Positions 1-24,902 of a DNA stretch of 40,671 bases are shown piece after piece. This DNA is from a virus. Each line of letters begins with the position of its first letter. Positions within the stretch are counted from its first letter, which is position 1. The translations under genes and the position numbers were made by a program. Where the stretch lies: the IMG/VR virus record IMGVR_UViG_3300020578_000174, positions 1 to 40,671 of that record, one strand, 5' to 3'. The notes under the pieces are model-generated. The model made no database searches. It had not been told where the DNA came from and was given only the letters and a program-made list of their open reading frames with translations.

Positions 1-145
1 GACCACTCGCGCCACGATAGGCGCCGTAGGCGGCGCCGAGACCCGCGCCGATCGTCGCGCCCATGTTGCCCTTCGCCGCGTTGACGAGCGCACCAAAGTT
101 AGCGCGCTTCTCGATCGCGTTCGCGACGCGCTCGCGGGTGCCCAT
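1..145 (-). CDS. Glycine-zipper virion protein, N-terminal part (cut by window edge)
   Basis: Only the first 48 residues are in the window. The ATG at 145 follows the stop of the tail-tube gene (TAA at 149-147) with one base between, so it belongs to the same leftward operon. After a short charged start containing the motif EKRANF, the protein enters a Gly/Ala-rich helix-like stretch ending in YGAYRG. Its start resembles that of the 412-aa protein at 5034-6272 (EKNANF followed by a Gly/Ala zipper), so the two are probably paralogous. Glycine zippers of this kind can insert into membranes, and position in the tail gene block suggests a virion component. Its exact function is unknown. Confidence 0.7.
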   Translation of the reverse strand, partial: MGTRERVANAIEKRANFGALVNAAKGNMGATIGAGLGAAYGAYRGASG

Positions 146-146
146 G

Positions 147-890
147 TTACGCCTCGCCCGTGCTGGTGGTGCGGGTGGAGAACGTGCCAAGCAGTCCCTC
201 GGACGCGCTCTGGATCAGGTCGACCGCGCTCACGCGCACGGGGACGATGCGCTCGAACTGAATGCCGACCTGCTCCTGCACCATCAGACCGTTCGCATCG
301 ACGCTGATGGAGTGGTTCGGGACGTAACACGCCTCAGCGTACACAGCGCCGATGGTGTCCTCGTTGGAGTCCACCGTCTTGATCAGCAGCCCGATGGGCT
401 GGCTGAACAGGTCGGAGGCGAGGTTCAGGTACAGGTTGTTGAAGCCCGGGCGGATCTTCACGTCGTGCGGGTTCGGCTCCATGAGCGTCGCCACCGCGCT
501 CATCGCAGTGAACGGCGGGACCTGCACGTTTCCGTTTAGGTCCTGCTTCGCGGCGTAGAGGACACGGAGCAGGCTCGGGCCGTGGTAGTACACACGCGCG
601 AGGCTGATGTTGCCCTGCGTGCGGCCCGAGACATGGTACGAGCGCTCCGAGCCCAGCTCGAAGATGCGGCTGAACCCGCGGCTGTGTGAGAGCGAGAAGC
701 TCTGGAGCATGCCGATAGGCTGTGTGATGGTCGCGGTGGCGAGCTCACCAGGGACATTGTTGAGCGCGCCAATGTTGGCGAGGCGGCAAGGCCCCGCGGC
801 GATCAGCGTGAACGCGCCGGAGGCGAACTGACCGTCCACCATGCCCTGCTGTACAAACCGCTCATAAGGCTTGAAGTCGTATGTAGCCAC
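147..890 (-). CDS. Putative tail tube protein
   Basis: This 247-aa protein lies directly downstream of the tail sheath, the usual place for the tube subunit in contractile-tailed phages. It starts at a GTG (890) with GGGAG six bases upstream. It has no membrane segments or low complexity and is rich in predicted beta strand. The stretch around residues 80-110 (SYHVSGRTQGNISLARVYYH) resembles T4 gp19-like tube proteins in style, but I cannot prove homology by eye. The tube would stack inside the sheath and conduct DNA. The assignment rests mainly on gene order and size; a baseplate or neck protein remains possible. Confidence 0.6.
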   Translation of the reverse strand: MATYDFKPYERFVQQGMVDGQFASGAFTLIAAGPCRLANIGALNNVPGELATATITQPIGMLQSFSLSHSRGFSRIFELGSERSYHVSGRTQGNISLARVYYHGPSLLRVLYAAKQDLNGNVQVPPFTAMSAVATLMEPNPHDVKIRPGFNNLYLNLASDLFSQPIGLLIKTVDSNEDTIGAVYAEACYVPNHSISVDANGLMVQEQVGIQFERIVPVRVSAVDLIQSASEGLLGTFSTRTTSTGEA

Positions 891-901
891 GGTGAACTCC
901 C

Positions 902-3900
902 TTAGACGACGATCGTCACGTCGATGTAGTTGGCGGGGAACAGCACCTCGACGCGCACGACGACCAGCACGCGGTCGGGCTGCTGCGAGTCCTGCTCGAG
1001 TGTGTCGACCACTGCGCTGCGGAACAGCCCGGCAGCGACGGCGCTCGAGCAGAGGCTGTCGGAGAGCAGCGTGAGCTCATCGAGATACGACTGCGTGATG
1101 TTGAACCGCCCGATGCGCGCGCGGAGCTGGTTGCGCATGGTCTTGGCGAACAGGTCCACGGCGCGCGTCACGCTCCACTCGCGGCTCTCGATCGTCGTGG
1201 GGTCAGTCGTGGACTGAATGCGGAGCGCGGGGGACTGCCCCGCGGTCTCCACCTCGATCACGCTGTTACCCGCGCTGATGATGTCGTAGTGACCGCGGTC
1301 GAGCAGCGGGCCCGCCACGTCGCTGAAGCCCACGAGCGGCACGCGGGTGAACGGCTCCTGAGCGGGCAGGTTGGCGCACGCGCCGGCGAGCGCAGCACCC
1401 CAGTAGAAGCTAGGCAGGCGACGCGAGACGCCGCCGATGGCGCTGCTCACGACGGTGTCGGGGTACAGCCGCAGCTGGCGACGGTTGAGGTACTGCTGCG
1501 CCTTGTCTCGAATAGTCTCCGCGTAGGCTGTCTTGTCGAGACGCGACGAGCCCGCCAAAGTGAGCAGCGTTCCGCGGAGCGAGAGGCTGAACTCCGCGCC
1601 GCTGAACACGTCGGGCAGGTCGTCTGATGTGTAGAAGCCATCGGCGTTCTGGGCGGTGGTCAGTTCGGTCGAAGCCCGCAGCGTGACGCGGGCGCCGTCG
1701 ACGCTCTTGACGCTGCGACGGTGCAGCGCGTCGCCGATGGTGAGCGTGATGAGGAGCTGCTGCCCGTTGTCGAGCTGGAACGGGATCTCGGCGCCCGTGT
1801 CTATGCCCGCCGCGGCCAGCGCCGCCTCGGGGCTGTCGTTCAGGTCGATCTGATTAGTCGTCACGGTCGACTCGGCGCCGCTCGCACCAGACGACAGCAG
1901 CACGTCGTCGTTGCGCCGCACGGGGTTGATGGGCGCGCTGATGACGACGCGCTCGCCGCGCATCAGCGGCTCGCTCATGTCCTTCACATGCGCGTCGCAC
2001 AGCGCGATCACGTCCTCGGACTGAGAGAGCGGCGCGAGAGCGTAGATCTCGTACGCACGTAGGAACTCCAACGCTCGCGCGTAGCTGACGGTCGTGCCGT
2101 TGGGCTCCGCGTCGCTCACGTCGTCTACGCCGAGCGCGGTCACCTCCACGCCCGCCCCCGCGTTCAGCAGCGCGAGGTACAGCCCGAGCGCGAGCGGGTT
2201 CCGTACGTCGATCGGCCCGTAGATGCTCTCGACATCATCCGTGTTGCTCACACGGATAATACCGGGCTGGTCCGCGTCGGCGGTCACATCTAGACGCAGC
2301 GCGGTATAGCCGATATGCACGCTCGCCGTGGAGCTGAGCGGGCGGCCCGTGAGGCTGCTGCGGAGCACGTCAGCTGTGATGGTGGGGGCGCCGCTGGCGT
2401 TCACGACGAGCTCGGGGAGGGGGCGACCCTCGCCCGCAGCGTAGTCCTCGCGCGAGGACGACGCGGTCAGGCGGAGGATCGCACCTAGTCCGCTGCTGGA
2501 GACCGTCACGGACGACGCTACACCGCGCAGAGGAGATGTGACGACGATCTGCGTCACGTCCGCGTCGTCATCGTCAACCAAGGAGAGCGCGGCGAAGCCG
2601 ATCGCGTCGTTCGCATCGGACACGAACTCCACGAGGCTCGCTGACTGCGCGAGCACGGTGTACTGCTTGGCGCTGTTGTTGAACGAGACGGTGAGACGCT
2701 CGCCCACCACATCCGACAGGCCAACATCTGTACCGGCGTCCGACGCGCTCGACAGCGTACCGAGCGCAGCCCACGCAGCACCGGAGAGCCCAAGCGAGAC
2801 ATGCGCTCCCTTCTCTAGTGTCGTGATGGTGAAGGTGTTACCAGCCACAGCTACGACCACGCCGGCGATCGCGCTCTCGAGCTTCGCCTTGACGTTGGCG
2901 ATGGTATCTCCGACCGCGAACGTGTAGCTGGCGGGGGTCGGCACGCCCGAGATCGACGTGATGACCGTACCGACGAGACCCACCGCGCCCTCGAACCCCT
3001 CGGGGGTGGTGGTCACGGTGATGCTGGCGGCAGTCGCCGCGAGATACCCACCGACGCCACGCAGGTCGCCACCGCTGAGCACCGCGGCGGAGTTCGCCTC
3101 GTCGCCAGTGAGCGCGCGCGCGGTCACAAAGCCGTTGCGCGGCGCGAAGGGTGTGGATGTGCCGAGCTCGTTCAGGCTGAAATCGTTATACCGCTGCGCT
3201 GTGGGATTCCCGTCCGCGTCGTACACGCTACGCAGAGGATCGACGACGCCCAGCCTGAGTCGCGTCGGCTGCACACCGATCACCATGACGCGAGACACAG
3301 ACTGCCCGTGGGGGCCAGTCGCCGTGAGCAGATCGCCGTCTGATGTGGCGGTCGCCGCGCGGAGCTGCAGACCGCTGAAGTCGACCTCGGGGACCCGTCC
3401 AACGGTGAGCTGCCCGAACGGATCGCGCTGGGTGATGAAGATGTTGAATGCCCCGAGAGCTGTCGTCTCGATCGGCGCATCACCGATCGGGGCAGCGCCC
3501 ACGGGCGCGAACACCGCGCCGCGGCTGTGCACAACGAAGGGCGACGACGAGACGTTGGGCAGCGGGTTATCCTCCGCATGTAGCCCAGCGCCCTCAACGC
3601 GCAGCGTCTTGTCGAAACCGTCGTCAGTGATGCCCTTCAAGAAGGTGGAGACGAACCCCGACGACACGCGGCGCAGCGTGACGGAGCTAGTGGCACCCGC
3701 GCGCGCGCTCTCGATGTGCAGACCGGTGTACGTCGTATCGGCGACCACGATCGTAGTCGCAGCGGCGACGCTACGACCAACAGCCGCGTTGATCTTCACG
3801 GCCAGCTGCGCGGCTGTGTCGTTCGCGGCGATGGGGATATGGAAATCCGCAGCGACCGAGTCTCGCGTTGTGTTGTCCAGCGCCAGGTTGATCACGGTCT

Positions 3901-4318
3901 CACCGACAGCGCCGTTATCATCAGAGAGCGGGCTCAGTGAGATGAAAAGACCCGCGCGGTGGCCGAGGTTGAGCTCGGTGAGGAACGCGGACGAGCGCCC
4001 GAGCTGCGTCGGCAGATCGCGCTGCATGAGCAGCGCGCTGACGCTTGACGCTACGACGCTCATCTGAGACGGGTCGGCGTGCGGCGTCGGCAGCTCCGAC
4101 ACGTCTACCGAGACGGGTAACTGCTCATAGCGGAGGTCACCTTGCGCGGTGACTACCTTCGCCGCGCTGTTAGGCGCCCCGGAGGCGTCGAGCGTGTCCA
4201 CGACCTCGTAGAGCGGCCCAACGATACACGGGATGAGCTGAGGGGTTACGGGAGCCGGCGGGGTCCCCTCAAAGACCTGCCGAATGTTAACTCCAGGCTT
4301 ACTGACTTGAGTGACCAT
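902..4318 (-). CDS. Tail sheath protein (large, with inserted domains)
   Basis: This 1138-aa protein is the contractile sheath subunit. The N-terminus has the sheath hallmark PGVNIRQVFEG followed by a segment leading to CIVGP. The C-terminal 200 residues carry the conserved sheath fold: a region like FTRVPLVGFSDV, then a helix (AKTMRNQLRARIGRFN) and a final strand rich in Val and Ile. It is far longer than T4 gp18 (about 660 aa). The extra middle (roughly residues 130-700) holds several Ser/Thr/Val-rich beta domains, some sharing a pattern like 'NDTAAQLAVKINAA' and 'GDTIANVKAKLESA', which look like repeated surface decorations. Start ATG has AGGAG six bases upstream. It shows that the virus is a myovirus. 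Confidence 0.88.
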   Translation of the reverse strand: MVTQVSKPGVNIRQVFEGTPPAPVTPQLIPCIVGPLYEVVDTLDASGAPNSAAKVVTAQGDLRYEQLPVSVDVSELPTPHADPSQMSVVASSVSALLMQRDLPTQLGRSSAFLTELNLGHRAGLFISLSPLSDDNGAVGETVINLALDNTTRDSVAADFHIPIAANDTAAQLAVKINAAVGRSVAAATTIVVADTTYTGLHIESARAGATSSVTLRRVSSGFVSTFLKGITDDGFDKTLRVEGAGLHAEDNPLPNVSSSPFVVHSRGAVFAPVGAAPIGDAPIETTALGAFNIFITQRDPFGQLTVGRVPEVDFSGLQLRAATATSDGDLLTATGPHGQSVSRVMVIGVQPTRLRLGVVDPLRSVYDADGNPTAQRYNDFSLNELGTSTPFAPRNGFVTARALTGDEANSAAVLSGGDLRGVGGYLAATAASITVTTTPEGFEGAVGLVGTVITSISGVPTPASYTFAVGDTIANVKAKLESAIAGVVVAVAGNTFTITTLEKGAHVSLGLSGAAWAALGTLSSASDAGTDVGLSDVVGERLTVSFNNSAKQYTVLAQSASLVEFVSDANDAIGFAALSLVDDDDADVTQIVVTSPLRGVASSVTVSSSGLGAILRLTASSSREDYAAGEGRPLPELVVNASGAPTITADVLRSSLTGRPLSSTASVHIGYTALRLDVTADADQPGIIRVSNTDDVESIYGPIDVRNPLALGLYLALLNAGAGVEVTALGVDDVSDAEPNGTTVSYARALEFLRAYEIYALAPLSQSEDVIALCDAHVKDMSEPLMRGERVVISAPINPVRRNDDVLLSSGASGAESTVTTNQIDLNDSPEAALAAAGIDTGAEIPFQLDNGQQLLITLTIGDALHRRSVKSVDGARVTLRASTELTTAQNADGFYTSDDLPDVFSGAEFSLSLRGTLLTLAGSSRLDKTAYAETIRDKAQQYLNRRQLRLYPDTVVSSAIGGVSRRLPSFYWGAALAGACANLPAQEPFTRVPLVGFSDVAGPLLDRGHYDIISAGNSVIEVETAGQSPALRIQSTTDPTTIESREWSVTRAVDLFAKTMRNQLRARIGRFNITQSYLDELTLLSDSLCSSAVAAGLFRSAVVDTLEQDSQQPDRVLVVVRVEVLFPANYIDVTIVV

Positions 4319-4346
4319 GCATGTCTCCTTTAGTCCACTCTCAACA

Positions 4347-4370
4347 ACCGCTAGATTAGTGTTTAGCGGT
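4347..4370. other. Hairpin in the 68-bp gap upstream of the sheath gene
   Basis: A perfect 7-bp inverted repeat (ACCGCTA / TAGCGGT) with a 10-nt loop sits between the 216-aa gene and the sheath gene. On the leftward transcript no T-run follows, so it is not a canonical terminator. It may be an RNA processing or stability element that separates sheath expression from upstream genes. This is one of the few gaps in the late block. Confidence 0.4.
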
Positions 4371-4386
4371 GTCGGCGGGCAACAGA

Positions 4387-5037
4387 TTAGTTGTCTTCGG
4401 CGGTCTCAACGGTGAGCGAGATGTCGTCGATCTGGTGCGCGGGGTTGCGCACCTCCCACTTGTGCGGAATGAACACAGGCACGACGACGGACACATTCAC
4501 TGCGCCGCCGTCTACGCTGTCCTGGAGGAGCCCGCCGGGCGGCGTCTCCCCGCTGATCGTGATCTCGGGCCCAACCCGCGTGAACGGCCCCTTCCGCTGC
4601 AGCAGCGTCTTGAGCGCCTTGATGTTGGACGCCATGAACCACGCCAGCGATGACGCCTCTGGTCCGGTCCGCGCGACACAGTTGAGCACCATCGTCGACG
4701 CGAGAATGTCGCGGTAGACCTTGTTGCCCGTCGCGAATGTGATGTATTCCATCCCGTCCATCGCCACGTTGGTGTACCCCGTCTGCCCGTGAACCACGAC
4801 GATCGCAGGTCGATTGTTGACCGCGCTGATGTGCAGGGGGTACGCGCCCGTGACGGTGATCTCCGTCTTGTCTGGGTCTGGCGACCAGCGGTATCTGCCG
4901 TCGGGCAGCGCTTTGAACAGCCCCTGCGTGAAGCCGATCATTACGCGCGTCGCGTGGTAGACCGGATCGTAGAGCGGGTCGTACTCCCTGCGTGGCGGGT
5001 CGAAGCCGCCATGTCGTACGGGTGGGACGCGGCTCAC
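4387..5037 (-). CDS. Putative neck or tail-completion protein
   Basis: A 216-aa protein encoded between the head-tail region and the sheath. It starts with GTG at 5037, overlapping the TGA of the upstream 412-aa gene (GTGA arrangement), so it is translationally coupled. The sequence is mixed alpha/beta with no transmembrane segment. A central region (ITFATGNKVYRDILASTMVL) precedes a C-terminal beta-rich part ending in a short acidic tail. Tail terminator, sheath terminator and neck proteins of myoviruses are typically about 150-280 aa and lie just upstream of the sheath, which fits, but I recognise no diagnostic motif. Specific role unassigned. Confidence 0.55.
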   Translation of the reverse strand: MSRVPPVRHGGFDPPRREYDPLYDPVYHATRVMIGFTQGLFKALPDGRYRWSPDPDKTEITVTGAYPLHISAVNNRPAIVVVHGQTGYTNVAMDGMEYITFATGNKVYRDILASTMVLNCVARTGPEASSLAWFMASNIKALKTLLQRKGPFTRVGPEITISGETPPGGLLQDSVDGGAVNVSVVVPVFIPHKWEVRNPAHQIDDISLTVETAEDN

Positions 5038-6272
5038 TCACCACCTCGCATATAGAATGCGGCGTGTTTCTGCGACTCCGCGCGCTCAGCACGGAGCTCC
5101 GCGCGCTGCCTGAGCACATGGGTGAGCGCGCTGAGCCCGCCGATCGCGCTCGCCGCGGGCACAAGGTACTTCAGCCGCTGATCGGGAGGTATCCCCTTTG
5201 CCACGTCGCCGTATCGCTTCTTCAGCAGCGCGGCGGTCCCGTACCCCAGACCCGCCCCGGCAGCGGTCCCGCCGGCGACAAGGAGGGCGTCGCGCAGCGC
5301 GCTGCGATTGGGGCGTTTACCACCCCGCAGCTCGGCGGCCTTCCCCATGTTCCCCAGCATATCCGCCATGTCACCCCGCGGCCTTGGGGCGGACGCCGCC
5401 TGTTGTTGCGCCCTCGCCGCCGCCTGCTCCTGTAGCCGCTCTATGCGACTACCGGAAAAAAACCCCGAGTTCGCGGTCTGCTGTGCCGCCTGTCGTTGCG
5501 CCCTCGCCGCCGCCTGCTCCTGTAGCCGCTCTATGCGACTACCCGAGAAGAACCCGACGTCTGCTACGGACGGCTGTTGGGACAGCGGGACTTGTGCTGG
5601 TTGCGTGGGAACAGGCGCGGGCGCGGATACGGGCGCAGGCGCAGGCGCGGGCGCAGGTGCGGGTGCAGGTGCAGGCGTACGAACGGGCGCGGGTGCAGGT
5701 GCAGGCGTACGAACGGGCGCGGGTGCGGGTGCGGGTGCGGGTGCAGGCGCGGGTGCAGTTTGCCCCGCAGGTCTGCGGGCTACAACATAGCGTCGCCTCA
5801 CCGCAGCAGCAGGCGCAGCGGCAGGTGCAGCGGCAGGTGCAGCAGCAGGCGCAGCGGCAGGTGCAGCGGCAGGTGCAGCAGCAGGTGCAGCAGCAGGTGC
5901 AGCGGCAGGTGCAGCAGCAGGTGCAGCAGCGGGCGTTGAGGGCTGCGGCCTAGGAGCAGGTGTCGTCGGAGCACCCGGTCCGCGGTACGCGCGCGTCAGA
6001 CCGTAGCCCGCTGCCCCGCCCACAGCTGCACCCATCAGCGCGCGACCAATCCGCTCCCCAGTATCTGCGTTTGGGTCGGCGGTCATGGCGCCCGCTCCAG
6101 CGCCCACGCCCGCGCCGATGAGCCCAACCCCGCCTGGGCTCTTGATGAACTGTCCAATCCCGGCGGTGCTCGGGGCGCGTATTGCTGCGAGCGCCGAGCC
6201 GTAGAAATTGGCGTTCTTCTCGAGTGCAGAGCCGACTAGAGCATCGGCGAACACATCACGGTCGTATTTCAT
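5034..6272 (-). CDS. Glycine-zipper protein with Ala-Pro repeats and a duplicated 30-aa unit
   Basis: This 412-aa protein has four parts. Residues 1-30 hold the motif EKNANF. Residues 40-105 form Gly/Ala zipper segments ending in a YGLTRAYRG motif. A long low-complexity linker has about eleven Pro-Ala-Ala-Ala units and then Ala-Pro tracts with repeated PVRTPAPA. Two near-identical copies of a 30-residue unit beginning GFFSGSRIERLQ follow. The C-terminus has another Gly/Ala segment and ends in QKHAAFYM. The ATG at 6272 overlaps the stop of the 269-aa gene (ATGA). The layout, two membrane-compatible ends joined by a rigid extended linker, suggests a virion protein that spans a distance or a membrane. 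Function not known; same module family as the genes at 7079 and 11783. Confidence 0.7.
   Translation of the reverse strand: MKYDRDVFADALVGSALEKNANFYGSALAAIRAPSTAGIGQFIKSPGGVGLIGAGVGAGAGAMTADPNADTGERIGRALMGAAVGGAAGYGLTRAYRGPGAPTTPAPRPQPSTPAAAPAAAPAAAPAAAPAAAPAAAPAAAPAAAPAAAPAAAPAAAVRRRYVVARRPAGQTAPAPAPAPAPAPAPVRTPAPAPAPVRTPAPAPAPAPAPAPAPVSAPAPVPTQPAQVPLSQQPSVADVGFFSGSRIERLQEQAAARAQRQAAQQTANSGFFSGSRIERLQEQAAARAQQQAASAPRPRGDMADMLGNMGKAAELRGGKRPNRSALRDALLVAGGTAAGAGLGYGTAALLKKRYGDVAKGIPPDQRLKYLVPAASAIGGLSALTHVLRQRAELRAERAESQKHAAFYMRGGE
5405..5543. repeat. 49-bp direct repeat, two copies 90 bp apart
   Basis: Two identical copies (5405-5453 and 5495-5543) spaced exactly 90 bp, in frame within the 412-aa gene. 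They encode the duplicated 30-residue unit that includes SGSRIERLQEQAAARAQ. DNA identity higher than needed for protein similarity points to a recent duplication or ongoing recombination. Confidence 0.85.
5611..5935. repeat. Low-complexity tandem repeats (12-bp and Ala-Pro codon repeats)
   Basis: From about 5803 to 5933 the sequence is a tandem array of 12-bp units close to gcaggtgcagcg, coding for Pro-Ala-Ala-Ala on the minus strand. From about 5611 to 5760 hexameric ggtgcg/ggcgca units code for Ala-Pro, with a duplicated block around gcgtacgaac. Such arrays expand and contract by slippage, so copy number may vary between isolates or assemblies. Confidence 0.85.
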
Positions 6273-7078: not shown

Positions 7079-7966
7079 CTAGGATGTCCGCAGTATTGTC
7101 TTGATGCGGTCATAAACACGCGCGTTGCTCGTCGCGCCGCCCACCGCGCCCGCCGTTGCGCCGATGAGGTAGGACGTGACGGGGTATGTCCTCGCGGTGT
7201 TGGACGCGCTGTCCATGCGTCGATCGTACGCCGCGCGGACCCGCCCGGTGATGCCCTGCGGCTCCTGTGGGGCGGGCACGGGTGACGGCTGTGAGAGCGT
7301 CCGCGACATGAGCCGATTGGTCGCGAGGAGCCCGCCGAGCGCACCAATGCCGCCGTCCACGAGTTGGTTCCGCGACAGCATCGCAGCTTTCACCATCCGC
7401 TCCGGAGGTGCAGACGCGAGCTTGAACTGTGTCCCCTGCCCTGACCCGTTGAGCTTGCCCTCGAGCGCAGCTGCGAGACTTCGGTGATCAGCGATGTCCG
7501 ACGGGCGCATGAACAGCCCCGCGGTCTTCTGCTGCCGCGCGCGCATCTCTTGAATCGCGGACTCCGCGCGCTCGATGGGGGCGCGATAGCCACGATATAG
7601 CCCGTATGCCTGCCCCGCTAGCGCGCCACCTATCGCACCGAGCCTGGTGCCCGCCTCGCCTCCTCGCATTCCGCCAGCAAGTCCACCCAACACACCCGCG
7701 CTGAGACCGAGCCCCACTTGTCGCCCTAGACCGCCCAGCGCGCCTGTCCCCATTCCAGCGCCTGCCCTCTCTCGCGTATCTGCGTCAGCGCCAGCCGCGT
7801 TGAGCATATTTTGCGCCTTACTCGCGCCCGCTGCGCCCAAGCCGGTGCCGAGCACGAGACCACCAGCGCTAATAGCGTTGAACGGCGCCATCGTGTCGTC
7901 ACGCGGGGAAGCTGTCTTGGAAATATGGCTGAGGGGTCTCTGGTCGAAAAGTACGTCCCAAGTCAT
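7079..7966 (-). CDS. Glycine-zipper module protein (candidate ejection/inner virion protein)
   Basis: A 295-aa protein. Residues 33-152 form a long Gly/Ala zipper containing ALGGLGRQ, then AYGLYRGYRAPIERA, then QKTAGLF. This closely matches the second module of the 603-aa protein (11783-13594), which has ALGGLGRQAG and YGLYRGFKAPIERA in the same order and spacing. A second Gly-rich segment lies near residues 200-225 and another near 265-285 (SYLIGATAGAVGGATSN). The start has GGAG upstream and the ATG directly follows the TAA of the 130-aa gene. Membrane insertion during DNA ejection is a reasonable guess from composition; no enzyme motif is visible. Confidence 0.7.
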   Translation of the reverse strand: MTWDVLFDQRPLSHISKTASPRDDTMAPFNAISAGGLVLGTGLGAAGASKAQNMLNAAGADADTRERAGAGMGTGALGGLGRQVGLGLSAGVLGGLAGGMRGGEAGTRLGAIGGALAGQAYGLYRGYRAPIERAESAIQEMRARQQKTAGLFMRPSDIADHRSLAAALEGKLNGSGQGTQFKLASAPPERMVKAAMLSRNQLVDGGIGALGGLLATNRLMSRTLSQPSPVPAPQEPQGITGRVRAAYDRRMDSASNTARTYPVTSYLIGATAGAVGGATSNARVYDRIKTILRTS

Positions 7967-8359
7967 TTAGCTTCTCCAGCCTGTTTCGCTGCCGTGGATC
8001 GAGTTGGTAAGCGCGAGGTTAGCCGCGACCGCTGCTGCGCGCGTGGCCTCCAGCGTCGCTAGCGCAATGCCTAGCGACGTCGCCTCGTCCGCCGTAAACG
8101 CTTCCTTGGCGTTGTCGTGGTAGAACAGGAAGATCATGTTGTCCGTGATGTACGGAGACGTCGCGCCGATATGCGTCGGGGATAGCCCGAGCGTACCATC
8201 TCGGTTTGTGTACTCACGAATGAAGCGCGCGCAGTTTGTCGTGTACAGCGACCCGTTGAAGTGGATGCACTGCATCTGCGAGAAGCGCACCTGTTCCCCA
8301 GTGTTCATCGGGAACAGCGGGTCGGGCGCACCGAGGTAGTTCGGATATGTGATCGGCAT
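7967..8359 (-). CDS. Unassigned virion-block protein, 130 aa
   Basis: A small soluble protein between connector-like genes, coupled to its upstream neighbour through a TAATG stop/start overlap. The N-terminal two thirds look beta-rich and the last 45 residues form an Ala-rich helix (TSLGIALATLEATRAAAVAA). Aromatic and Asn-rich stretches such as PITYPNYLGAPDP resemble virion proteins rather than enzymes. I do not recognise the family; a head-tail joining or capsid-vertex role is possible from position only. Confidence 0.55.
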   Translation of the reverse strand: MPITYPNYLGAPDPLFPMNTGEQVRFSQMQCIHFNGSLYTTNCARFIREYTNRDGTLGLSPTHIGATSPYITDNMIFLFYHDNAKEAFTADEATSLGIALATLEATRAAAVAANLALTNSIHGSETGWRS

Positions 8360-8847
8360 TATCTGTACACCCTGTCGAAGACGTCGTAGTAGCCACCAAG
8401 GAAGTAGTAGTCGGAGATGACCGAGTCACCCTCCATGGCCATGGTGATGTTCATGGATGTTTTCCACCGAGACAGCCTGTCGTCGAACGACGCGCGGAGC
8501 ATCTGCAACCACTGCATGATCATGGGCGCCTTGTCGGACGCGTTGACCGAGATACCACCATCGCTGTAGTTGAGCTGATTGCGCATCTGCAGCAGGCCGA
8601 CAGACTCCAGCACGCTGATGACCGTGCCGCGGAGAAGCAGGCTCCGCATGGGGAAGGTCGTGCACGTGTACTGCCCAATGAACGGCGGCGTGTTGTTGAT
8701 CAGATCAAGCGCGTCGATGACCGCCCACGCGAGCATGCGGTCGCTCGTCTCCTCACCGTCGATAAGACGGTTGAGCTCCGGGTAATCGCGAAGGTACATG
8801 CGGACCTCGGCGACGAAGTCCGCCAGGTCTTGCTGCACCTTCTTCAT
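8359..8847 (-). CDS. Putative head-tail connector protein
   Basis: A 162-aa, mainly helical protein (KKVQQDLADFVAEVRMYLRD at the start, then several amphipathic helices) encoded a few genes downstream of the major capsid protein. Size, helical character and gene order match the helical head-completion/connector proteins (gp6- or gp15-like) that dock under the portal. It overlaps the previous gene by ATGA and the next by TAATG. No single motif proves the family, so this is a positional call. Confidence 0.5.
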   Translation of the reverse strand: MKKVQQDLADFVAEVRMYLRDYPELNRLIDGEETSDRMLAWAVIDALDLINNTPPFIGQYTCTTFPMRSLLLRGTVISVLESVGLLQMRNQLNYSDGGISVNASDKAPMIMQWLQMLRASFDDRLSRWKTSMNITMAMEGDSVISDYYFLGGYYDVFDRVYR

Positions 8848-9365
8848 GACCCGCCCCTGCGAGCTCGGCGTCCGCCGCGCTTCTTCGGCGTCGGCTGCTC
8901 ATCCGAAGGCTCGCCGTCCTCAATGTCCGTCTCGACCTCGTCGGTATCTGACGACGCGGGCTCATCGACAGAGACGAGCGAGTCAAACGCGACGACCAGC
9001 GGCTCCGCCGCGGGCTCCCCGACCGCGGCATCTGCTTGCGCGCTGGGCGTGTCCGTCCACGTTGTGGGCGTCACTACGGCAGACTCCGCCACTGCGGACG
9101 GCGCATGGGGCGGCTCAGTGTCAACCGACGGCTGCGCCGCGGGGGTCGTGACCGCGTCAGGAATGTGCGTCACGACGATGGCGGCTGCTGCCCGATTGAG
9201 CTGCGGCACGAGGCGCTCGTAGACGTCATCCGTCACTGTGATGCTGTTCCCTGGGCGCAGGCGTGTGGCGAAGTAGCCGATGTCGAGCGCGAGGACGCTG
9301 TAGCCCTGCAGGGCTGTGCGCATCTGCTCTCGTGGGACGTCGTCTCGTAAGTAGATCTTGTACAT
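8844..9365 (-). CDS. Small protein with folded N-terminus, acidic Pro/Ala linker and Arg/Gly-rich tail
   Basis: A 173-aa protein. Residues 1-70 look folded (MYKIYLRDDV, then RLRPGNSITVTDDVYERLV). The remainder is disordered: about 90 residues rich in Ala, Pro, Thr, Asp and Glu, then a strongly basic end (KKRGGRRARRGGS). The start is set at 9365 because AGGAG lies upstream there. The reading frame stays open further upstream, but only through the tRNA-Leu gene, so a longer protein is an artefact. The N-terminus is reminiscent of short phage proteins near head-completion genes. The basic tail could bind DNA or RNA. Function unknown. Confidence 0.65.
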   Translation of the reverse strand: MYKIYLRDDVPREQMRTALQGYSVLALDIGYFATRLRPGNSITVTDDVYERLVPQLNRAAAAIVVTHIPDAVTTPAAQPSVDTEPPHAPSAVAESAVVTPTTWTDTPSAQADAAVGEPAAEPLVVAFDSLVSVDEPASSDTDEVETDIEDGEPSDEQPTPKKRGGRRARRGGS

Positions 9366-9417
9366 ATGCTGGCTCCTGTAGAGCGAGCATACATGGTGCG
9401 CGCTGTGAGCGCAATAA

Positions 9418-9500
9418 TCGTCGGGGCGGGACTTGAACCCGCACGCTCTCAGAGCGCCAGATCCTAAATCTGGTGCGTCTACCTGTTCCGCCACCCGACG
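9418..9500 (-). tRNA. tRNA-Leu (anticodon UAG)
   Basis: The minus strand folds as a class II tRNA of 83 nt without encoded CCA. It has a 7-bp acceptor (CGTCGGG/CCCGACG), a D arm with the GG of the loop, a 5-bp anticodon stem (CCAGA/TCTGG) with loop TTTAGGA and anticodon TAG, a long variable arm (CGCTC-TGA-GAGCG) and a T arm GCGGG-TTCAAGT-CCCGC. The discriminator is A, as in leucine tRNAs. It reads CUA and possibly other CUN codons, rare in GC-rich hosts. Confidence 0.96.
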
Positions 9501-9501
9501 A

Positions 9502-9574
9502 TGCCTCATGTCAGAATCGAACTGACGACCGCTCGCTTACAAGGCGAGTGCTCTGCCGACTGAGCTAACGAGGC
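9502..9574 (-). tRNA. tRNA-Thr (anticodon UGU)
   Basis: A 73-nt cloverleaf on the minus strand. The acceptor is GCCTCGT/ATGAGGC with one G-T pair, the D arm is GCTC/GAGC, and the anticodon stem is CTCGC/GCGAG with loop CTTGTAA and anticodon TGT. The T arm is GTCAG-TTCGATT-CTGAC and the discriminator is A. CCA is not encoded. One base separates it from the tRNA-Leu, so both likely mature from the leftward late transcript between the capsid gene and the neck genes. Confidence 0.96.
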
Positions 9575-9583
9575 GCGCCCGCC

Positions 9584-9655
9584 CTAGTCCAACCGCGATA
9601 CGCCCACCGCGATCAGGAAGGCGGCGAGCGCGTACATCAGCCAGGTCTCCGCCAT
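9584..9655 (-). CDS. 23-residue membrane microprotein, coupled to the capsid gene
   Basis: A 72-bp reading frame whose ATG overlaps the TGA of the major capsid gene (TGATG). It encodes a short polar start (MAETW), a hydrophobic helix LMYALAAFLIAVGV, and a short end SRLD. It fills the gap between the capsid gene and the tRNA-Thr. No independent ribosome binding site is seen, so expression would depend on termination-reinitiation at the abundant capsid message. The single transmembrane-like helix and the tight spacing support a real gene, but the length makes chance possible. Confidence 0.42.
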   Translation of the reverse strand: MAETWLMYALAAFLIAVGVSRLD

Positions 9656-10806
9656 CAGAACTGCGTGACGAGCGGGCTCTGGAAGCCCTCGTCCGTCTTG
9701 CTGCGGCGACGCCCGAGGTCCTCCTCGTCGGCGGGGAGCTTGGACGCGAACCCAAGCGTGGTGTTCTCCGGCGTGACGGAGCCCGAGTAGAGCTCCAACT
9801 TGACCACGCTGTTGAGGTTCAGGAAGGCCATGCCGATGTCCTCCCAGCACCAGAAGGTGATCTTGTTGCCGATCTTGTCCACGTAGAACTTGGTGTTGTT
9901 CAGCACGTAGAAGCAGCCGAGGAACTCGGGGGTGGTGAAGCCGTACATGTTCCCGCGACGGAGGATGTCCGTCTTGATCGTGCGCACGAAGCGGCGACCG
10001 AGGATCGTGTTGTACTTGTAGCCGTCCACGACGGTCTCAGACTGGATACGATCACCGAAGTCCTCGACGGTCCACTGAAGGATGTCGTCGTAATCGGACT
10101 CGGTGAGCAGCACCATGTCGAGGCGCACGCGGCGGTCAGGACCGGCCATCATCTTGAAGAAGTTGACGAAGTCGTTGCGCTGCACGGGGCGCACCACGAA
10201 GTCATCGGCGGTGGCGGCGAGCGCGCCGCTGCCCTTCATGACGGAGGCGTTCTGGTCGGGGCCGTTGGCGCGGCTGTTGGCGAGCACCGCGCTGCGGCTG
10301 AAGGCGCCGTGCGAGGCGAAGCGCTCGTTCGAGTCCTTCTGGAGCTGCTGGATGCCGGCCTCGGCGTAGATGAGGAACTGACGGTCCTCGATCTCCTGCA
10401 GGTTGTTGGCGGACTGCTCCTCGATCATCTTGGTGATCGGCATCTTGTACGCGAGGAGCTCCTGCTCCGTCTTCTCGAAGTGCTCGGACTCGATCGTGAA
10501 GAACGAGACCGCCACGCGAGGCGCACGGATGTAACGAGCGCGCGCAGAGCCGCGGAAGTCCACGACCATGGCGCGGCTCTCGGGCTCGAGCTCCTCGATC
10601 TTCACGAGACCGTCGTGCTCGGTCGACACCTGGCACTCGGCGGGAGTGACCGGCTGCGGGGGGAGGATCTTGCGAGCGAAGCTGACCTCGCGGAGGTGGT
10701 CACGAATCACGCCGCCGCCGTAGGCAGCGATCTTCTGACGACCCTCCTCCGTACCGAGCTTCTCCACGAAGAGGCTGTTCACCATCTCAGCGCTGTAAGC
10801 AGACAT
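9655..10806 (-). CDS. Major capsid protein (HK97-fold type)
   Basis: A 383-aa protein in the classical position just downstream of a decoration protein and the protease/scaffold region. The helical N-terminus (NSLFVEKLGTEEGRQKIAAY), the long spine-like helix followed by an A-domain-like sequence (KIGNKITFWCWEDIGMAFLN) and a final beta segment are typical of capsid proteins of large myoviruses. It has normal capsid-subunit length, no signal peptide and no membrane segment. AAGGA lies upstream of the ATG. The EKxA tetrapeptide found in nearby inner-virion proteins is absent here. Confidence is high for a structural role and good for capsid. Confidence 0.8.
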   Translation of the reverse strand: MSAYSAEMVNSLFVEKLGTEEGRQKIAAYGGGVIRDHLREVSFARKILPPQPVTPAECQVSTEHDGLVKIEELEPESRAMVVDFRGSARARYIRAPRVAVSFFTIESEHFEKTEQELLAYKMPITKMIEEQSANNLQEIEDRQFLIYAEAGIQQLQKDSNERFASHGAFSRSAVLANSRANGPDQNASVMKGSGALAATADDFVVRPVQRNDFVNFFKMMAGPDRRVRLDMVLLTESDYDDILQWTVEDFGDRIQSETVVDGYKYNTILGRRFVRTIKTDILRRGNMYGFTTPEFLGCFYVLNNTKFYVDKIGNKITFWCWEDIGMAFLNLNSVVKLELYSGSVTPENTTLGFASKLPADEEDLGRRRSKTDEGFQSPLVTQF

Positions 10807-10821
10807 ATTGTCACCGATTCC

Positions 10822-11400
10822 TTAGTTGATGCCGAAGAGGACGCGGACCTTGGCCTTGCTGCCAGAGCCGCTGAGACGTGAGACGCGGCCGACGCAGAAG
10901 CCGGTGCTGATGGCGCCAACGCTCACACCCACGCCGATGACGTAGTTGTTGGTGTTGAACGTCGAGGGGTTGAGCGGGTTGCGCACGGGCATCGCGAAGA
11001 CGCGCGCGCCGATCTCAAAGCCGCCGGCGGGGTCGTTGTCGATGTTGCCGGCGCCCTCGCCGGCAGCGAACGTCGCGTCGCCGCTGCGCTCGAAGAGCAT
11101 GGTGTCGGCCTCGAAGGGCCCGAACTGCAGGATGGGCACGCTGCCGCTGGTCACGATGTCGCCGCGACCGGTCTCGCTGAAGTACGGCGCGACGAACTTG
11201 GTCAGCGCGACGTTAGCGTTGTTGTTGATCGCGAAATCGGGGCGCTCGACGCCGTTCGCGCCGGTCAGCGCGAGCAGCTCGCCCGCGACGAGGCGGTTGG
11301 AGGTCTGCCCGAGCAGCAGAGACGAGCTCCCCGCCCACTTCTTGCTGGGCGCGTAGATCGTAAGGAAGGGCGAGACGAGCTCAAAAGTCTGGATCGCCAT
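10822..11400 (-). CDS. Putative capsid decoration (cement) protein
   Basis: A 192-aa beta-rich, Gly/Ala/Val/Asn-rich protein immediately upstream of the major capsid gene. Small beta-rich proteins paired with the capsid gene are usually head-stabilising decoration proteins. Features such as SVPILQFGPFEADTMLF and the beta-barrel-like ending VGRVSRLSGSGSKAKVRVLF support this. The ATG at 11400 has AGGAG six bases upstream, one of the better ribosome sites in the block, as expected for an abundant protein. The specific decoration family cannot be named from sequence alone. Confidence 0.6.
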   Translation of the reverse strand: MAIQTFELVSPFLTIYAPSKKWAGSSSLLLGQTSNRLVAGELLALTGANGVERPDFAINNNANVALTKFVAPYFSETGRGDIVTSGSVPILQFGPFEADTMLFERSGDATFAAGEGAGNIDNDPAGGFEIGARVFAMPVRNPLNPSTFNTNNYVIGVGVSVGAISTGFCVGRVSRLSGSGSKAKVRVLFGIN

Positions 11401-11415
11401 GTTGTTCTCCTGTGG

Positions 11416-11772
11416 TTAGTGATCACCCATGAGGTACGCTTCTAGTTGTGAGCGGGCGCTGTGTCCACGACTCTGCTCGTCAGATAATGATGCCACATTG
11501 AAACGGCCAGTGTCTAGCAGGTTGACCGCCTCCTGGATCACAGAGATCCGCGAGGGGTCGCGTGCGAACTCCGCCGCCTTCTCCTCCATGTCGGCTCGGT
11601 CGATGTGCCCGGCGTTCGCCATGCGGACAGCGAGGTCCGCCGCGACATCGGCGCGCTCGCGCTCGGCGAGCTGCGCGCGCAGGTACTCAAGCTCTTGCTG
11701 CTGCTGGATGATCACCGCGGAGGCGGTCTTCACGAGCTCACCCGCTGCGCGCATCGATGCGATCTTTCTCAT
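11416..11772 (-). CDS. Helical protein near the capsid gene (possible scaffold or core component)
   Basis: A 118-aa, almost wholly helical protein with a coiled-coil stretch (IIQQQQELEYLRAQLAERER, residues about 23-42). It contains VKTAS near the N-terminus and EEKAAEF in the middle, both variants of the K-x-A motif repeated in neighbouring proteins. The start at 11772 has AGGAG upstream, inside the stop region of the previous gene. A short coiled-coil protein next to decoration and capsid genes could act as scaffold or core protein, but no family is recognised. Confidence 0.6.
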   Translation of the reverse strand: MRKIASMRAAGELVKTASAVIIQQQQELEYLRAQLAERERADVAADLAVRMANAGHIDRADMEEKAAEFARDPSRISVIQEAVNLLDTGRFNVASLSDEQSRGHSARSQLEAYLMGDH

Positions 11773-11782
11773 GATGTCGCTC

Positions 11783-13594
11783 CTACTTGTTGAAGATCGA
11801 GAGGTGGCCGTCGAGGTTGTACCCGTCGCCGGTCTGTGAGACGTACGCACCCATCTCGGAGTTGATACGGTCGCGGACCTTCTGCGCCTTCATGGCGACG
11901 AGCTGCTCGGGAGACATGGCGCCGCCGAACACAGGCGCACCAGCAGCGGGCATCACCTCGCCGCTGAAGGCAGGTGCGGGACCGGCGCTGATCTGGGCGG
12001 GGTTGATCGCGTCCTCCGCGAACTTGCCGAAACCAGCCTGCTTCTTGCGCCCGCCCTTCGCTGCGATGAGATCATCGGCGCGTTCGATGGGGGCCTTGAA
12101 CCCGCGGTACAAGCCGTACATGCCGCCGCCGGCCGCGCCGAGAACCGCCCCGACATCCGGCCTGTCGACGGCCGCGCCGATCAGCGAACCGCCGAGAGCC
12201 CCGCCTAGAGAATAGCCTGCCTGCCGACCTAGCCCGCCCAGCGCGCCCTCAACATAGCCCTCGTGCTCTGGCGATAACCCTTCCAACTCAAGTTTCCTGC
12301 GCGCTACATTGGTGCCGAGCGCCCCCGAAGCTAGGCCTAACATCGCCTGCTTGCCAAGTGACGCACGCTTCTTGTGCCCGCCCTTCGCTGCGATGATCGC
12401 GTCGGCGCGCTCGCCTGGACCCTTGTATCCGCGGTATGCACCGTAGAGACCCGCGAGCGCCGCTGCGGCAGCGCCGGCCTTCCCTGCAGCGCCGCGGGGC
12501 GCTTGGTAGCCGGGGTTACGCTTCTCGTAGCGCCGCACGGCCTCGCGTGCGACGGCGCCGACCCCCAGCCCTGCCAACGCTGCTGGGTAGAGGGTTCTGC
12601 CCGTGCCGCCGGCGATGCCCTCACCCAAGCCGCCCGCGAGGTCCCGGTCAAGACCGGCGGCCTCGAGCTTCGCGCGTGCGCGACTCGCGCCGATCCCACC
12701 CGCAAGTGCGCCCGTCGCCCCGGCTACCCCAGCGACCGGTAGGGCGTAGAAAGGCACTTCAAGCTGGGATGATGCCTGCTTCTGTGTCTGCTCCCCGCGG
12801 TTACGCTTGGAGTACAGATACGCGCCAGCGCCGAGCGCTGCGAGCCCCGCCGCCCCAGCCATGTAGCGTCCCTTGTTACGGCTCAGATGCTCACCTAGAC
12901 CACCCGGTGCGACGGGTGCCCGCGGCGCACTCGTAGGCTGTGGCGCACTCGCAGGCTGCGGGAATCCAGGCTGACCCTTAGGTCCGAGAGTGGGGGCCGT
13001 CTGGGTCGGCGGGTTCTGCCCGAGCCCGCGGGCTGTATTATCCGCACCGCCAAAATGGCGTGCACGCGCCGCCTGCTCCTCTAGCAGTTTCGCCTCCGCG
13101 GCTGCGCGGCGCGCACGCATCTCTTGCAGCTTGACCTGCGCGTTAGACGGAACAGGCGGGGGCTGCACTGGTGCGGGCATCTGTACGGTAGGTGCGATCG
13201 GCGAGATAGGCGCGTGCGGCTGGGCGCCGCGCAGCGCGGGCGCCACAATCGGAGCTGCGGGCGCTGCGATCGGCGACACGTGGGGCGCGGAGGACGCAAC
13301 GGGCGACGGTGCGCCGCCGCCCTGCCCGCGCGCCGCGTTGTTATCCTCGATTATCCTCTTCATCATGCCCCGCGGGGCCTTGGCCTTGCGAACCGCCTCC
13401 TTCATGAGCTCGGCCTGCGCCAATAGCTCGCTGGGAGACGGCGTGGAGTCCTCGAGATTGGCACCTATGAAGTTGAGCGCGGCCGCCAGCTTCATAATAT
13501 CAACATCGTAGACGCCCGAAGGGGCCTGCGCCTGCTCCACAGCGCGACCGTACCCCGCACTCATCGCCTGCTCAATGACGTCCTGAACATTCAT
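11783..13594 (-). CDS. Two-module glycine-zipper inner-virion protein
   Basis: A 603-aa protein. Residues 1-85 are helical. Residues 95-235 are a Pro/Ala-rich linker broken by a helix (KLQEMRARRAAAEAKLLEEQ). A short Gly/Ala helix follows (244-262), then two tandem modules at about 285-412 and 413-522. Each module is a Gly/Ala zipper ending in YGAYRGYKGPGERA or YGLYRGFKAPIERA, then IAAKGG and KKRAS or KKQAG. The second module is clearly homologous to residues 33-152 of the 295-aa protein. The C-terminal 80 residues are polar. The ATG at 13594 has AGGAG, which lies in the arm of a hairpin. Composition suggests an ejection protein that can enter membranes. Confidence 0.7.
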   Translation of the reverse strand: MNVQDVIEQAMSAGYGRAVEQAQAPSGVYDVDIMKLAAALNFIGANLEDSTPSPSELLAQAELMKEAVRKAKAPRGMMKRIIEDNNAARGQGGGAPSPVASSAPHVSPIAAPAAPIVAPALRGAQPHAPISPIAPTVQMPAPVQPPPVPSNAQVKLQEMRARRAAAEAKLLEEQAARARHFGGADNTARGLGQNPPTQTAPTLGPKGQPGFPQPASAPQPTSAPRAPVAPGGLGEHLSRNKGRYMAGAAGLAALGAGAYLYSKRNRGEQTQKQASSQLEVPFYALPVAGVAGATGALAGGIGASRARAKLEAAGLDRDLAGGLGEGIAGGTGRTLYPAALAGLGVGAVAREAVRRYEKRNPGYQAPRGAAGKAGAAAAALAGLYGAYRGYKGPGERADAIIAAKGGHKKRASLGKQAMLGLASGALGTNVARRKLELEGLSPEHEGYVEGALGGLGRQAGYSLGGALGGSLIGAAVDRPDVGAVLGAAGGGMYGLYRGFKAPIERADDLIAAKGGRKKQAGFGKFAEDAINPAQISAGPAPAFSGEVMPAAGAPVFGGAMSPEQLVAMKAQKVRDRINSEMGAYVSQTGDGYNLDGHLSIFNK

Positions 13595-13600
13595 GGTGTA

Positions 13601-13641
13601 CTCCTAGCGCCGCCTGGGGCTACCGCGTTGGGCGTTAGGAG
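13601..13641. promoter_or_regulatory. Hairpin that pairs with the ribosome-binding site of the 603-aa gene
   Basis: An 11-bp inverted repeat (13601-13611 with 13631-13641) with one G-U-type mismatch and a 19-nt loop. On the leftward mRNA its 3' arm contains the TAGGAG that serves the ATG at 13594, so folding would hide the ribosome site. It also could act as a processing signal in the 72-bp gap between the 315-aa and 603-aa genes. No T-run follows, so a terminator is less likely. Confidence 0.45.
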
Positions 13642-13666
13642 GGCGGCGCGCTGTGTTGTGCGTGTA

Positions 13667-14614
13667 TTAGTCCAGCAGCGAGTTGATGATGTGCTCGGCC
13701 GCGACGTTCAGCATCTCGTCCATCTCCGAGAAAGCGACAAACTCGTCGTCGTCGTTCGCGAACTCGGGAGACGGGAAAGACGCGAGCTTGGCGAACTCGG
13801 GCTGGATATCCTCGAGGGTCTCAGGATGGATGCCGTTCGCGAGCAGGATCTCCGCGGCGCGGAGCTCCGCCTCCTTCGCGAAGTCCTCGGCATCGTAGGC
13901 GTCCATGAAGTACGCCTTCTTCTCCTGACGGTTCTTGTACATGCGATAGGCGCCGTAGCCGGCGCCGGCGGCGAGGGCACCCGCGCCGATACCAAGGCCG
14001 ATCTTAGCGCCGCGCGAGAGGCCGGGCATGGGGACGTCACCGGGACGCTTAACGTGGGGGTACTTGCGGTGGAGATCCTCGTAGTGCCGCGCGACCGTGT
14101 CTCGACCAAAGCGCGCATCGCGCTTGCCCTCCTGCTCGATGCGGCGCATGTACTCAGCGAGCTGACGCCCGCCCGCGCTGTTGCGGTAACCAGGCGTGTG
14201 GGTGGGATCGGAGAGCATCCGGCGAGTCTCCTCGGCGGAGAGAGCGATCTTCTCCAGCTCCCAGGCGTGGGCGACATCGTTAAGCGCGTGTGCGACCTTA
14301 CTGAACATAGCGTCTCCGTTCTCGAGTGTGTTGAGTTCATCCTTGTAGCTGAGCGCCATCTGACGCCCGACCATGTCAGCCTCGGCGAGCTTGGTCTCGA
14401 GCTCGCTGTCGACAATGTTATCCATCTCGTCTTCGTCAGACAAGACATAGTGAGCGAACTTAGAAAGTTCATCGTCGTCGAGCTCATTGAGATCGACACC
14501 AGCCTCGGCAGCCACGGCCTCCACGAGCTCGATCTGCGCTTGCTTCACTTGCTCGTCTGCCTGCGCTTGCTGAGAGCCGTAAAGCTCCTGAAGCAAGAGT
14601 TCATCCATGCTCAT
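13667..14614 (-). CDS. Virion-block protein with a single glycine-zipper helix and acidic N-terminus
   Basis: A 315-aa protein. The first 100 residues are acidic and helical, with LSKFAHYVLSDEDE and later FSKVAHAL and LEKIALSAEE. Residues about 196-222 form one Gly/Ala helix (KIGLGIGAGALAAGAGYG) followed by AYRMYKNRQEKKAYF, matching the zipper-plus-KKxA pattern of its neighbours. The C-terminus is helical and acidic. The gene has AGGAG at a proper distance and lies between the protease and the 603-aa gene. A scaffold/core or internal virion protein processed by the prohead protease is plausible. Confidence 0.6.
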   Translation of the reverse strand: MSMDELLLQELYGSQQAQADEQVKQAQIELVEAVAAEAGVDLNELDDDELSKFAHYVLSDEDEMDNIVDSELETKLAEADMVGRQMALSYKDELNTLENGDAMFSKVAHALNDVAHAWELEKIALSAEETRRMLSDPTHTPGYRNSAGGRQLAEYMRRIEQEGKRDARFGRDTVARHYEDLHRKYPHVKRPGDVPMPGLSRGAKIGLGIGAGALAAGAGYGAYRMYKNRQEKKAYFMDAYDAEDFAKEAELRAAEILLANGIHPETLEDIQPEFAKLASFPSPEFANDDDEFVAFSEMDEMLNVAAEHIINSLLD

Positions 14615-19012: not shown

Positions 19013-19022
19013 AGGTGCCACC

Positions 19023-19616
19023 TTGAGTAATGTTGAACTTGATTATGTGACGACACGCGACGCCGCGCAAGAGATAGGCGTCTCGCGCCGCACTCTCCAG
19101 CGTCACATTAAGAGCGGAAAGCTCAAAACGACGCAACGGCGCGGAAAGTGCGCGCTGATATCTCGGGCGGATCTAGCACGCTATGTACGAGACAGCGCCG
19201 CGCGCGGGCAGAGCCTGCGTGCGCGAGCGGACAGCGTAGACGACCGCGTGTCTGCGCTGGAGCAGCGGGTGCGTACCCTCGAGGCGCTGCTCGACATCAC
19301 GCCGGTGCGACGCGTCGTGCTGAGCGACGAGGATGTCGTCACATACAGAGAGCGGCTTCACAGTATACTTCACACGCGGAAGCGGTGGATGATCAGCGAC
19401 ATCTCCGCGCTGATCAGCGACGTCGGGCGCCTCTCGCCCGAGACTGTCTCCGCTGTGAGCGCCAAGCTGCTGCACGCCGCGATGGAGCGGTGCATCGTGG
19501 AGGCGCGTCTGCTGCGGCACTCACGCAGCGAGATCTACGCGGGCCGCGCGATCTTGATTATGCGCGAGCTTGGTGTGTCGTCTGAGGAAGCAGAACATCT
19601 GGCCTCGGATTGGTGA
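19023..19616 (+). CDS. HTH-domain DNA-binding protein, antisense to the late block
   Basis: About 197 aa, the first of two isolated rightward genes flanking the terminase. Residues about 9-55 read as a MerR/excisionase-type winged HTH: YVTTRDAAQEIGVSRRTLQR, then HIKSGKLK, then ALISRADLARYVRD. A coiled-coil stretch follows (SVDDRVSALEQRVRTLEALL) and a helical C-terminus. The start is uncertain: a TTG at 19023 with AGGTG upstream is the best placed; GTG 19047 is an alternative. Its 3' end overlaps the 3' end of the terminase gene by 59 bp on the opposite strand. A regulator of the late block or a terminase partner (small-subunit-like HTH) are both possible. Confidence 0.65.
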   Translation: MSNVELDYVTTRDAAQEIGVSRRTLQRHIKSGKLKTTQRRGKCALISRADLARYVRDSAARGQSLRARADSVDDRVSALEQRVRTLEALLDITPVRRVVLSDEDVVTYRERLHSILHTRKRWMISDISALISDVGRLSPETVSAVSAKLLHAAMERCIVEARLLRHSRSEIYAGRAILIMRELGVSSEEAEHLASDW

Positions 19617-24900: not shown

Positions 24901-24902
24901 CT

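Follow-up and report, generated by a model that had tools for sequence, protein, structure and literature searches.

Gene content of the window and its relatives

The window, i.e., the whole stretch of DNA analyzed here, is a 40,671-base IMG/VR virus record that represents a fragment of a large, uncultured myovirus. Genes for the tail tube, tail sheath, major capsid protein, head-maturation (prohead) protease, terminase, RNA polymerase, and a probable portal protein are located on the minus strand, together with several genes for putative inner-head proteins that carry glycine zippers, the short motif K-x-A, or both (Table 1). Helicase (ResIII/DEAD) and uracil-DNA glycosylase genes are encoded on the opposite strand at the window end (38530-40540, +). 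Adjacent tRNA genes for Leu-TAG and Thr-TGT (9417-9574, -) separate the capsid gene from the following structural gene and are overlapped by an ORF at 8844-9509.

Table 1. Features of the window discussed in the text, in order of position (aa, amino acids; G/A, glycine/alanine)
Feature	Position	Strand	Basis or remark
Gene start, cut by the window end; EKRA site and YGAYRG zipper	2-145	-	after tube gene
Tail tube	147-890	-	gene
Tail sheath	902-4318	-	gene
412-aa protein; two zippers and Ala-Pro repeats	5034-6272	-	K-x-A at residues 19, 311, and 402
412-aa protein, second zipper, conserved	5070-5330	-	alignment to relatives
412-aa protein, zipper-like N-terminal part	5973-6206	-	composition
K-x-A (KTA, residues 147-149) directly behind the 295-aa protein module	7520-7528	-	motif
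295-aa protein, zipper module	7529-7894	-	gene 7079-7966; paralogue of the 603-aa protein modules
K-x-A in front of the 295-aa protein module	7910-7918	-	motif; residue 17
Major capsid protein	9655-10806	-	homology
K-I-A, residues 25-27 of the capsid protein	10726-10734	-	aligned with the phage G gp27 junction
144-aa ORF; three K-x-A sites	11416-11850	-	position of Arash gp225; putative core/scaffold protein
603-aa protein; G/A helix (residues 242-262) and two zipper modules	11783-13594	-	sequence
603-aa protein, zipper module 2, residues 416-517	12044-12349	-	K-x-A at either end
603-aa protein, zipper module 1, residues 276-408	12371-12769	-	K-x-A at either end
315-aa protein; G/A helix ending YGAYR (13922-14026), then EKKA	13667-14614	-	sequence
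Head-maturation (prohead) protease, 752 aa	14657-16915	-	homology
Glycine zipper inserted in the protease	15794-16123	-	between K-x-A sites 262 and 375
452-aa protein; internally repeated G/A hairpin domain	16866-18224	-	z = 9.2; syntenic with Arash gp221, a virion protein
265-aa protein; seven K-x-A sites	18224-19021	-	homologue of Arash gp220 (virion protein)
Terminase	19558-21318	-	gene
793-aa ORF; twelve K-x-A sites	22822-25203	-	C-terminal resemblance to Arash gp218, by eye
RNA polymerase, 2,096 aa, beta and beta' fused	26204-32494	-	homologue of Arash gp206 and gp216
Portal protein, probable	33621-35684	-	gene

Amongst annotated phages, those most closely related to the window are Salmonella phage Arash (proposed 'Arashvirus') and Vibrio phages D69, D148, and D181, which share the head gene order of the window and have the K-x-A motif and a G/A zipper protein at the corresponding place, but lack the 100-aa YGxYRG module and encode the RNA polymerase in two genes. 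In the window, a single chain without a stop and with an intact NADFDGD motif contains both parts of a multisubunit RNA polymerase, beta (Rpb2) and beta' (Rpb1), whereas Arash and D69 encode two proteins that are split inside beta'. The comparison also included the IMG/VR relatives L003-L007, L020, and L026-L028 (the same contigs are the source of the additional pieces L021-L025).

Mass spectrometry of Arash virions detected gp221, gp222, gp223, gp224, gp225, and the polymerase parts gp206 and gp216, the latter two amongst the most abundant virion proteins (PMC10585845). By synteny, gp221 occupies the position of the 452-aa protein, gp222 is the protease, and gp224 is the G/A zipper protein at the position of the 603-aa protein; the 793-aa ORF, which probably starts internally, is a probable counterpart of gp218, another virion protein. 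Given that Arash virions contain these counterparts together with the protease and the RNA polymerase, the inner-head proteins of the window are likely present in its head. The suggestion made in a first-pass annotation of this DNA, that these are virion proteins accompanied by a packaged polymerase, is accordingly plausible by homology, and its proposal that they insert into the host membrane and form a pore is possible but gained no support, with predicted hydrophobicity being marginal.

A dispersed K-x-A motif in the head proteins

K-x-A occurs 55 times in 11 head proteins of the window versus 25.3 expected, while K-to-A spacings of 1, 3, 4, 5, and 6 in the same proteins occur at 0.5-1.0 times expectation and K-x-A in the other window proteins (sheath, tube, terminase, polymerase, and others) at 1.08 times. 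The 315-aa protein alone has eight sites (2.05 expected). The same division is seen in Arash (2.06-fold in head genes gp218-226 versus 0.84-fold in the remaining 191 genes), D69 (2.27 versus 0.99), and five IMG/VR relatives (1.97 versus 1.19); for the phage G region, the 'other' set is enriched as well (1.76-fold). The most enriched Arash genes include gp220, gp225, gp4, gp223, gp242, gp222, and gp218, the products of which are all in virions and, except for gp4 and gp242, are encoded within the head cluster.

An unbiased scan ranked all residue pairs at spacings 1-4 (about 1,300-1,600 pairs) by enrichment. K-x-A ranked first in the head sets of Arash, D69, L026, and L028 and second in that of the window, behind PxxxP from an Ala-Pro repeat, versus 876 of 1568 in the other window proteins; it ranked 12 in the head set of Bxz1-like phages, where it is in part replaced by R-x-A. 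As a control, the scan of T4 gp67, gp68, gp21, gp22, and gp23 placed LxE first and IxE second. The T4 gp21 protease is specific for L-x-E and I-x-E. In four SPN3US proteins, the known A-x-E was recovered at rank 21. K-x-A is thus a dispersed motif that is enriched at one spacing and in head proteins only, like L-x-E and A-x-E, and literature searches of open-access text found no earlier report of it.

Across 284 K-x-A sites, L, M, or F is favored two residues before K, E one residue before K, and T, V, I, or L between K and A, and serine is enriched 4.9-fold right after A. K-x-A pairs of the window are kept in 59% of orthologue comparisons versus 25-35% for pairs at other spacings. The 144-aa ORF probably has its real start at MRKIASM. 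A preference of K-x-A for G/A stretches in general was considered and rejected (21 of 64 versus 19.5 expected at random positions in the same proteins). Every G/A stretch that ends in YGxY/H has a K-x-A within 21 residues. Within the zipper modules no K-x-A was found against 4.0 expected (P = 0.01), a comparison that is partly circular as the modules are delimited by the sites. The KKxA or QKTA motif, which had been regarded as the closing element of the module, is better described as a motif that is found throughout the head proteins and bounds the module.

Glycine zippers and their distribution

The first-pass annotation had described one family of glycine-zipper modules spread over several genes, and the peptides it quoted were all found at the places given, on the minus strand. 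The zippers are real, beyond chance and specific to one spacing: in eight modules, G-to-G spacing 4 (GxxxG) is 1.85-fold enriched (60 observed versus 32.4 expected), whereas no such excess is seen at spacings 1-3 and 5-8 (0.8-1.3 times expectation). Local alignment against 200 shuffles identified the two modules of the 603-aa protein and the module of the 295-aa protein as clear paralogues, with z = 15.8 between modules 1 and 2, z = 15.3 between module 2 and the 295-aa protein, and z = 10.0 between module 1 and the 295-aa protein. The fragment at 1-145 is a probable further member (z = 6.3 to module 2, over just 48 aa). The first zipper of the 412-aa protein (5034-6272) and the 315-aa protein (13667-14614), both of which had been counted in the family, gave z scores of about 3-5.6, barely or not above the best shuffle, lack ALGGLGRQ and APIERA, and were rejected as compositional look-alikes. 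The proposed order of elements (ALGGLGRQ, zipper, YGxYRG, APIERA) is complete in two copies, while module 1 has IAGGTGR and GPGERA in place of ALGGLGRQ and APIERA.

Other zippers belong elsewhere. The C-terminal zipper of the 412-aa protein forms a separate conserved family, with an orthologue in L003 (z = 41.8) and syntenic counterparts in L004, L006, and L007. The region between the two zippers of this protein contains a duplicated unit of the SGFFSGSRIERLQEQAAARA type and extended Ala-Pro (PAAA) repeats, and the counterparts of the protein in L003, L004, L006, and L007 comprise the C-terminal zipper part only. Zippers that had been overlooked are located inside the protease and as hairpins in the 452-aa protein. 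The latter has two copies of a hairpin-plus-helical domain, and Arash gp221 and the D69 counterpart apparently have a single copy. L004 and L006 likewise have zipper genes behind the tube gene, which is where the truncated gene at the window end (2-145) lies.

A single module copy occurs in L003 (z = 9.3 against module 2 of the 603-aa protein). L004 and L007 have zipper-free orthologues of the 603-aa protein, with lengths of 112 and 100 aa, respectively. The protease insert has a relative in L003 (z = 7.9), is also present in L020, and is absent from L004-L007, the proteases of which still have K-x-A sites at the corresponding place. Zippers are therefore gained and lost within one phage group, and the earlier argument that module duplication reflects selection for many copies is unsupported, given the zipper-free orthologues.

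Wider relatives of the module, for which a profile search had been recommended, did not emerge convincingly from single-protein scans of viral contigs, from profile scans of viral and genome contigs (beyond L003), or from searches of PDB sequences and Pfam profiles. A hairpin of CusB matched one module member (E = 0.0006) and was rejected as a match of composition. Pfam Gly-zipper families (YMGG, PF13441) share the GxxxG periodicity but scored 15.4 and 14.5 bits, under the curated cut-off of 28.9 (best E-value 0.015). The AlphaFold2 model of the module has three helices at low confidence (pLDDT 52), and that of the protease was too poor to use (pLDDT 36).

One possible, though doubtful, reading of the zippers is that the proteins are ejected and oligomerize in the host envelope as a conduit for DNA and polymerase, with precedents in T7 gp14-16 (PMC8954989) and P22 gp7, gp16, and gp20 (PMC8402733). 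The GxxxG zippers are real, basic residues flank the zipper segments, and the counterparts and the polymerase are virion proteins of Arash. However, the predicted hydrophobicity is marginal (best Kyte-Doolittle values of 1.16-1.44 for zipper segments versus 1.71 by equal measure for the soluble tail sheath), the zipper-free head orthologues of L004 and L007 indicate that zippers are not essential to this type of phage, and profile searches found no homology to any ejection protein. Ejection would be compatible with cleavage at K-x-A, which would release active zipper segments.

It is improbable, but worth considering, that G/A helices tether the prohead to the inner membrane and that cleavage at an adjacent K-x-A releases it. 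The 315-aa protein and its orthologues or counterparts, including those in the divergent L026, L027, and L028, have a single G/A helix ending in YGxY/H with K-x-A 5-10 residues further on, and in SPN3US, the proheads of protease mutants remain attached to the inner membrane (PMC10052503). The marginal hydrophobicity again argues against a membrane role, as does the lack of conservation of the helix in L004 and L007.

Prohead protease, capsid junction, and a proposed maturation code

The protease domain of the window spans about residues 55-256 and lies between K-x-A sites at 52-54 and 262-264. Across the matched domain, identity is 40.8% to Arash, 43.5% to D69, and 35% to phage G gp19 (127 aa, E = 7e-16), and a relative in Rhodococcus phage E3 (gp77) carries a prohead protease annotation. 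Residues S184, C194, C197, C208, and H210 are invariant amongst the window, its near relatives, Arash, D69, and phage G. With its conserved TSMG serine and CSIC...C.H cluster, the window protein can be assigned by sequence to the phage G gp19/Bxz1-like family, with putative protease activity. The domain in near relatives is flanked by EKTAG before and FVLEK[VI]AS behind, and the phage G and Bxz1-like proteases have K-V-A or K-T-A immediately after the domain. In the Bxz1-like phage Rabinovish, gene 93 (L014:10868-14881; 1,337 aa) adjoins the protease and encodes a long G/A zipper (HEAAAFLIPLMGAGAGG) as well as sites of the RTAA/KSAA type, which suggests the same arrangement of zipper and sites beside the protease in Bxz1-like mycobacteriophages.

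The capsid protein of phage G provides an experimental junction. It is encoded as 282 aa and is 255 aa in its mature form by N-terminal sequencing, with 27 residues removed (PMC5646251, Table 1), which places the cut (↓) after A27 (A27↓Q28). Alignments by three MAFFT modes all place this junction exactly after K-I-A of the window capsid protein. At this position L003-L007 have K-[IL]-A, Arash and D69 have K-E-A, and Bxz1-like phages and E3 have K-L-A. Phage G itself reads A-L-A↓Q; lysine at P3 is therefore not universal. The phage G capsid structure entry (6wkk), the sequence of which still has the N-terminal region, and the Myrna capsid paper (PMC7150772) hold nothing on cleavage.

Prohead proteases are packaged and recognize dispersed motifs at which they cleave core proteins, the capsid protein, and also their own chain (PMC10052503). 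By analogy, K-x-A, cut after A, is probably the recognition site of the phage's own prohead protease, with a proposed consensus of [LMF]-E-K-[TVIL]-A↓S, and the zippers would be inserts in the precursors that are cut. K-x-A might instead be a docking or packaging signal bound by the protease, portal, or capsid protein, or a feature of helices, as could be imagined from the many copies per protein. This is very improbable given that the motif coincides with the proven phage G capsid junction, flanks the protease domain, and is followed by serine in the manner of a P1' preference, and that the same scan recovered the true cleavage motif of T4.

Under the proposed cleavage code, the protease would be packaged together with the capsid protein and inner-head precursors and, during maturation, would cut the precursors at K-x-A, remove the first 27 residues of the capsid protein, trim itself, and dissect the inner-head proteins. 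The zippers may be helical oligomerization segments inserted in the precursors, including the protease. K-x-A sites enclose the zippers in the 603-aa protein (residues 272, 409/415, and 518/524, in addition to sites at 35 and 65), the 295-aa protein (17 and 147), the protease (262 and 375), and the 412-aa protein (19/311 and 311/402), such that complete digestion would release segments of about 100 aa that contain the zippers, unless these are retained as mature ends. The zippers are thus probably set free inside the head, beside the DNA and packaged RNA polymerase, and are probably more than simple pore-forming membrane proteins. Because trypsin, the enzyme used in the proteomic study of Arash, itself cleaves at K, those data are blind to K-x-A cleavage despite near-complete coverage (PMC10585845). 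Cleavage itself, the fate of the zippers, and any role of theirs in head-core assembly or ejection are what we infer.

A different fate for the zippers can be entertained tentatively, in which they are oligomerization devices of the prohead core (scaffold), packed around the portal and then cut away, largely leaving the head. Their host proteins are rich in K-x-A, like the multiply cut T4 gp22 and gp67 and SPN3US gp53 propeptides, one zipper lies within the protease itself, and zippers are quickly gained and lost between relatives; against this, mature Arash virions still yield many spectra of gp223, gp224, and gp225. The most far-reaching form of the maturation proposal, which as a whole is unlikely, would have Arash, D69, the window clade, phage G, and Bxz1-like phages share an undescribed code, K-x-A↓S, with the window lineage excising zipper peptides from several head precursors including the protease in a polyprotein-like loading of the capsid, and these oligomerizing, possibly membrane-active peptides ejected with the virion RNA polymerase. 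Compared with the pore reading, which is possible, the predicted K-x-A cleavage code of a prohead-protease group common to Arash-like, phage G, and Bxz1-like phages is the safer and broader result.

If the cleavage code holds, many head proteins of phage G and of the Bxz1-like and Arash-like groups that are now 'hypothetical' become interpretable as precursors. Sequence could then yield predictions of mature ends, propeptides, and inner-head cargo, and virion mass spectra that already exist could be used to check them. The scan of residue pairs, by which T4 L-x-E is recovered blindly (and the SPN3US motif more weakly), may also read the protease codes of other phage groups. Zippers freed in the head, if confirmed, would be candidate parts of the ejection machinery, as yet poorly understood, of large myoviruses with a virion RNA polymerase.

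Several known systems resemble the proposed one in part. The T7 and P22 ejection proteins are internal head proteins with membrane-active helices, an analogy only, with zero sequence similarity detectable in profile searches. The sites of T4 gp21 in gp22, gp67, gp68, and gp23 are likewise a short motif dispersed in head precursors, with many copies in core proteins and one at the N-terminus of the capsid protein, although the motif is L-x-E rather than K-x-A and the window protease has the CSIC...C.H cysteine/histidine cluster. SPN3US gp245 and phiKZ-type proteases (A-x-E↓S) recognize an X-x-Y motif with serine at P1', as proposed for the window, and SPN3US has multiple propeptide cuts, self-cleavage, and a virion RNA polymerase in the head (PMC10052503), but the residue specificity differs, with alanine at P3 rather than P1. 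Literature searches of open-access text found no published cleavage motif for the proteases of phage G (gp19), Bxz1-like phages, or E3 (gp77). These phages have a homologous protease domain and share the capsid protein family, whereas Bxz1-like phages differ from the window in using both K and R at the motif.
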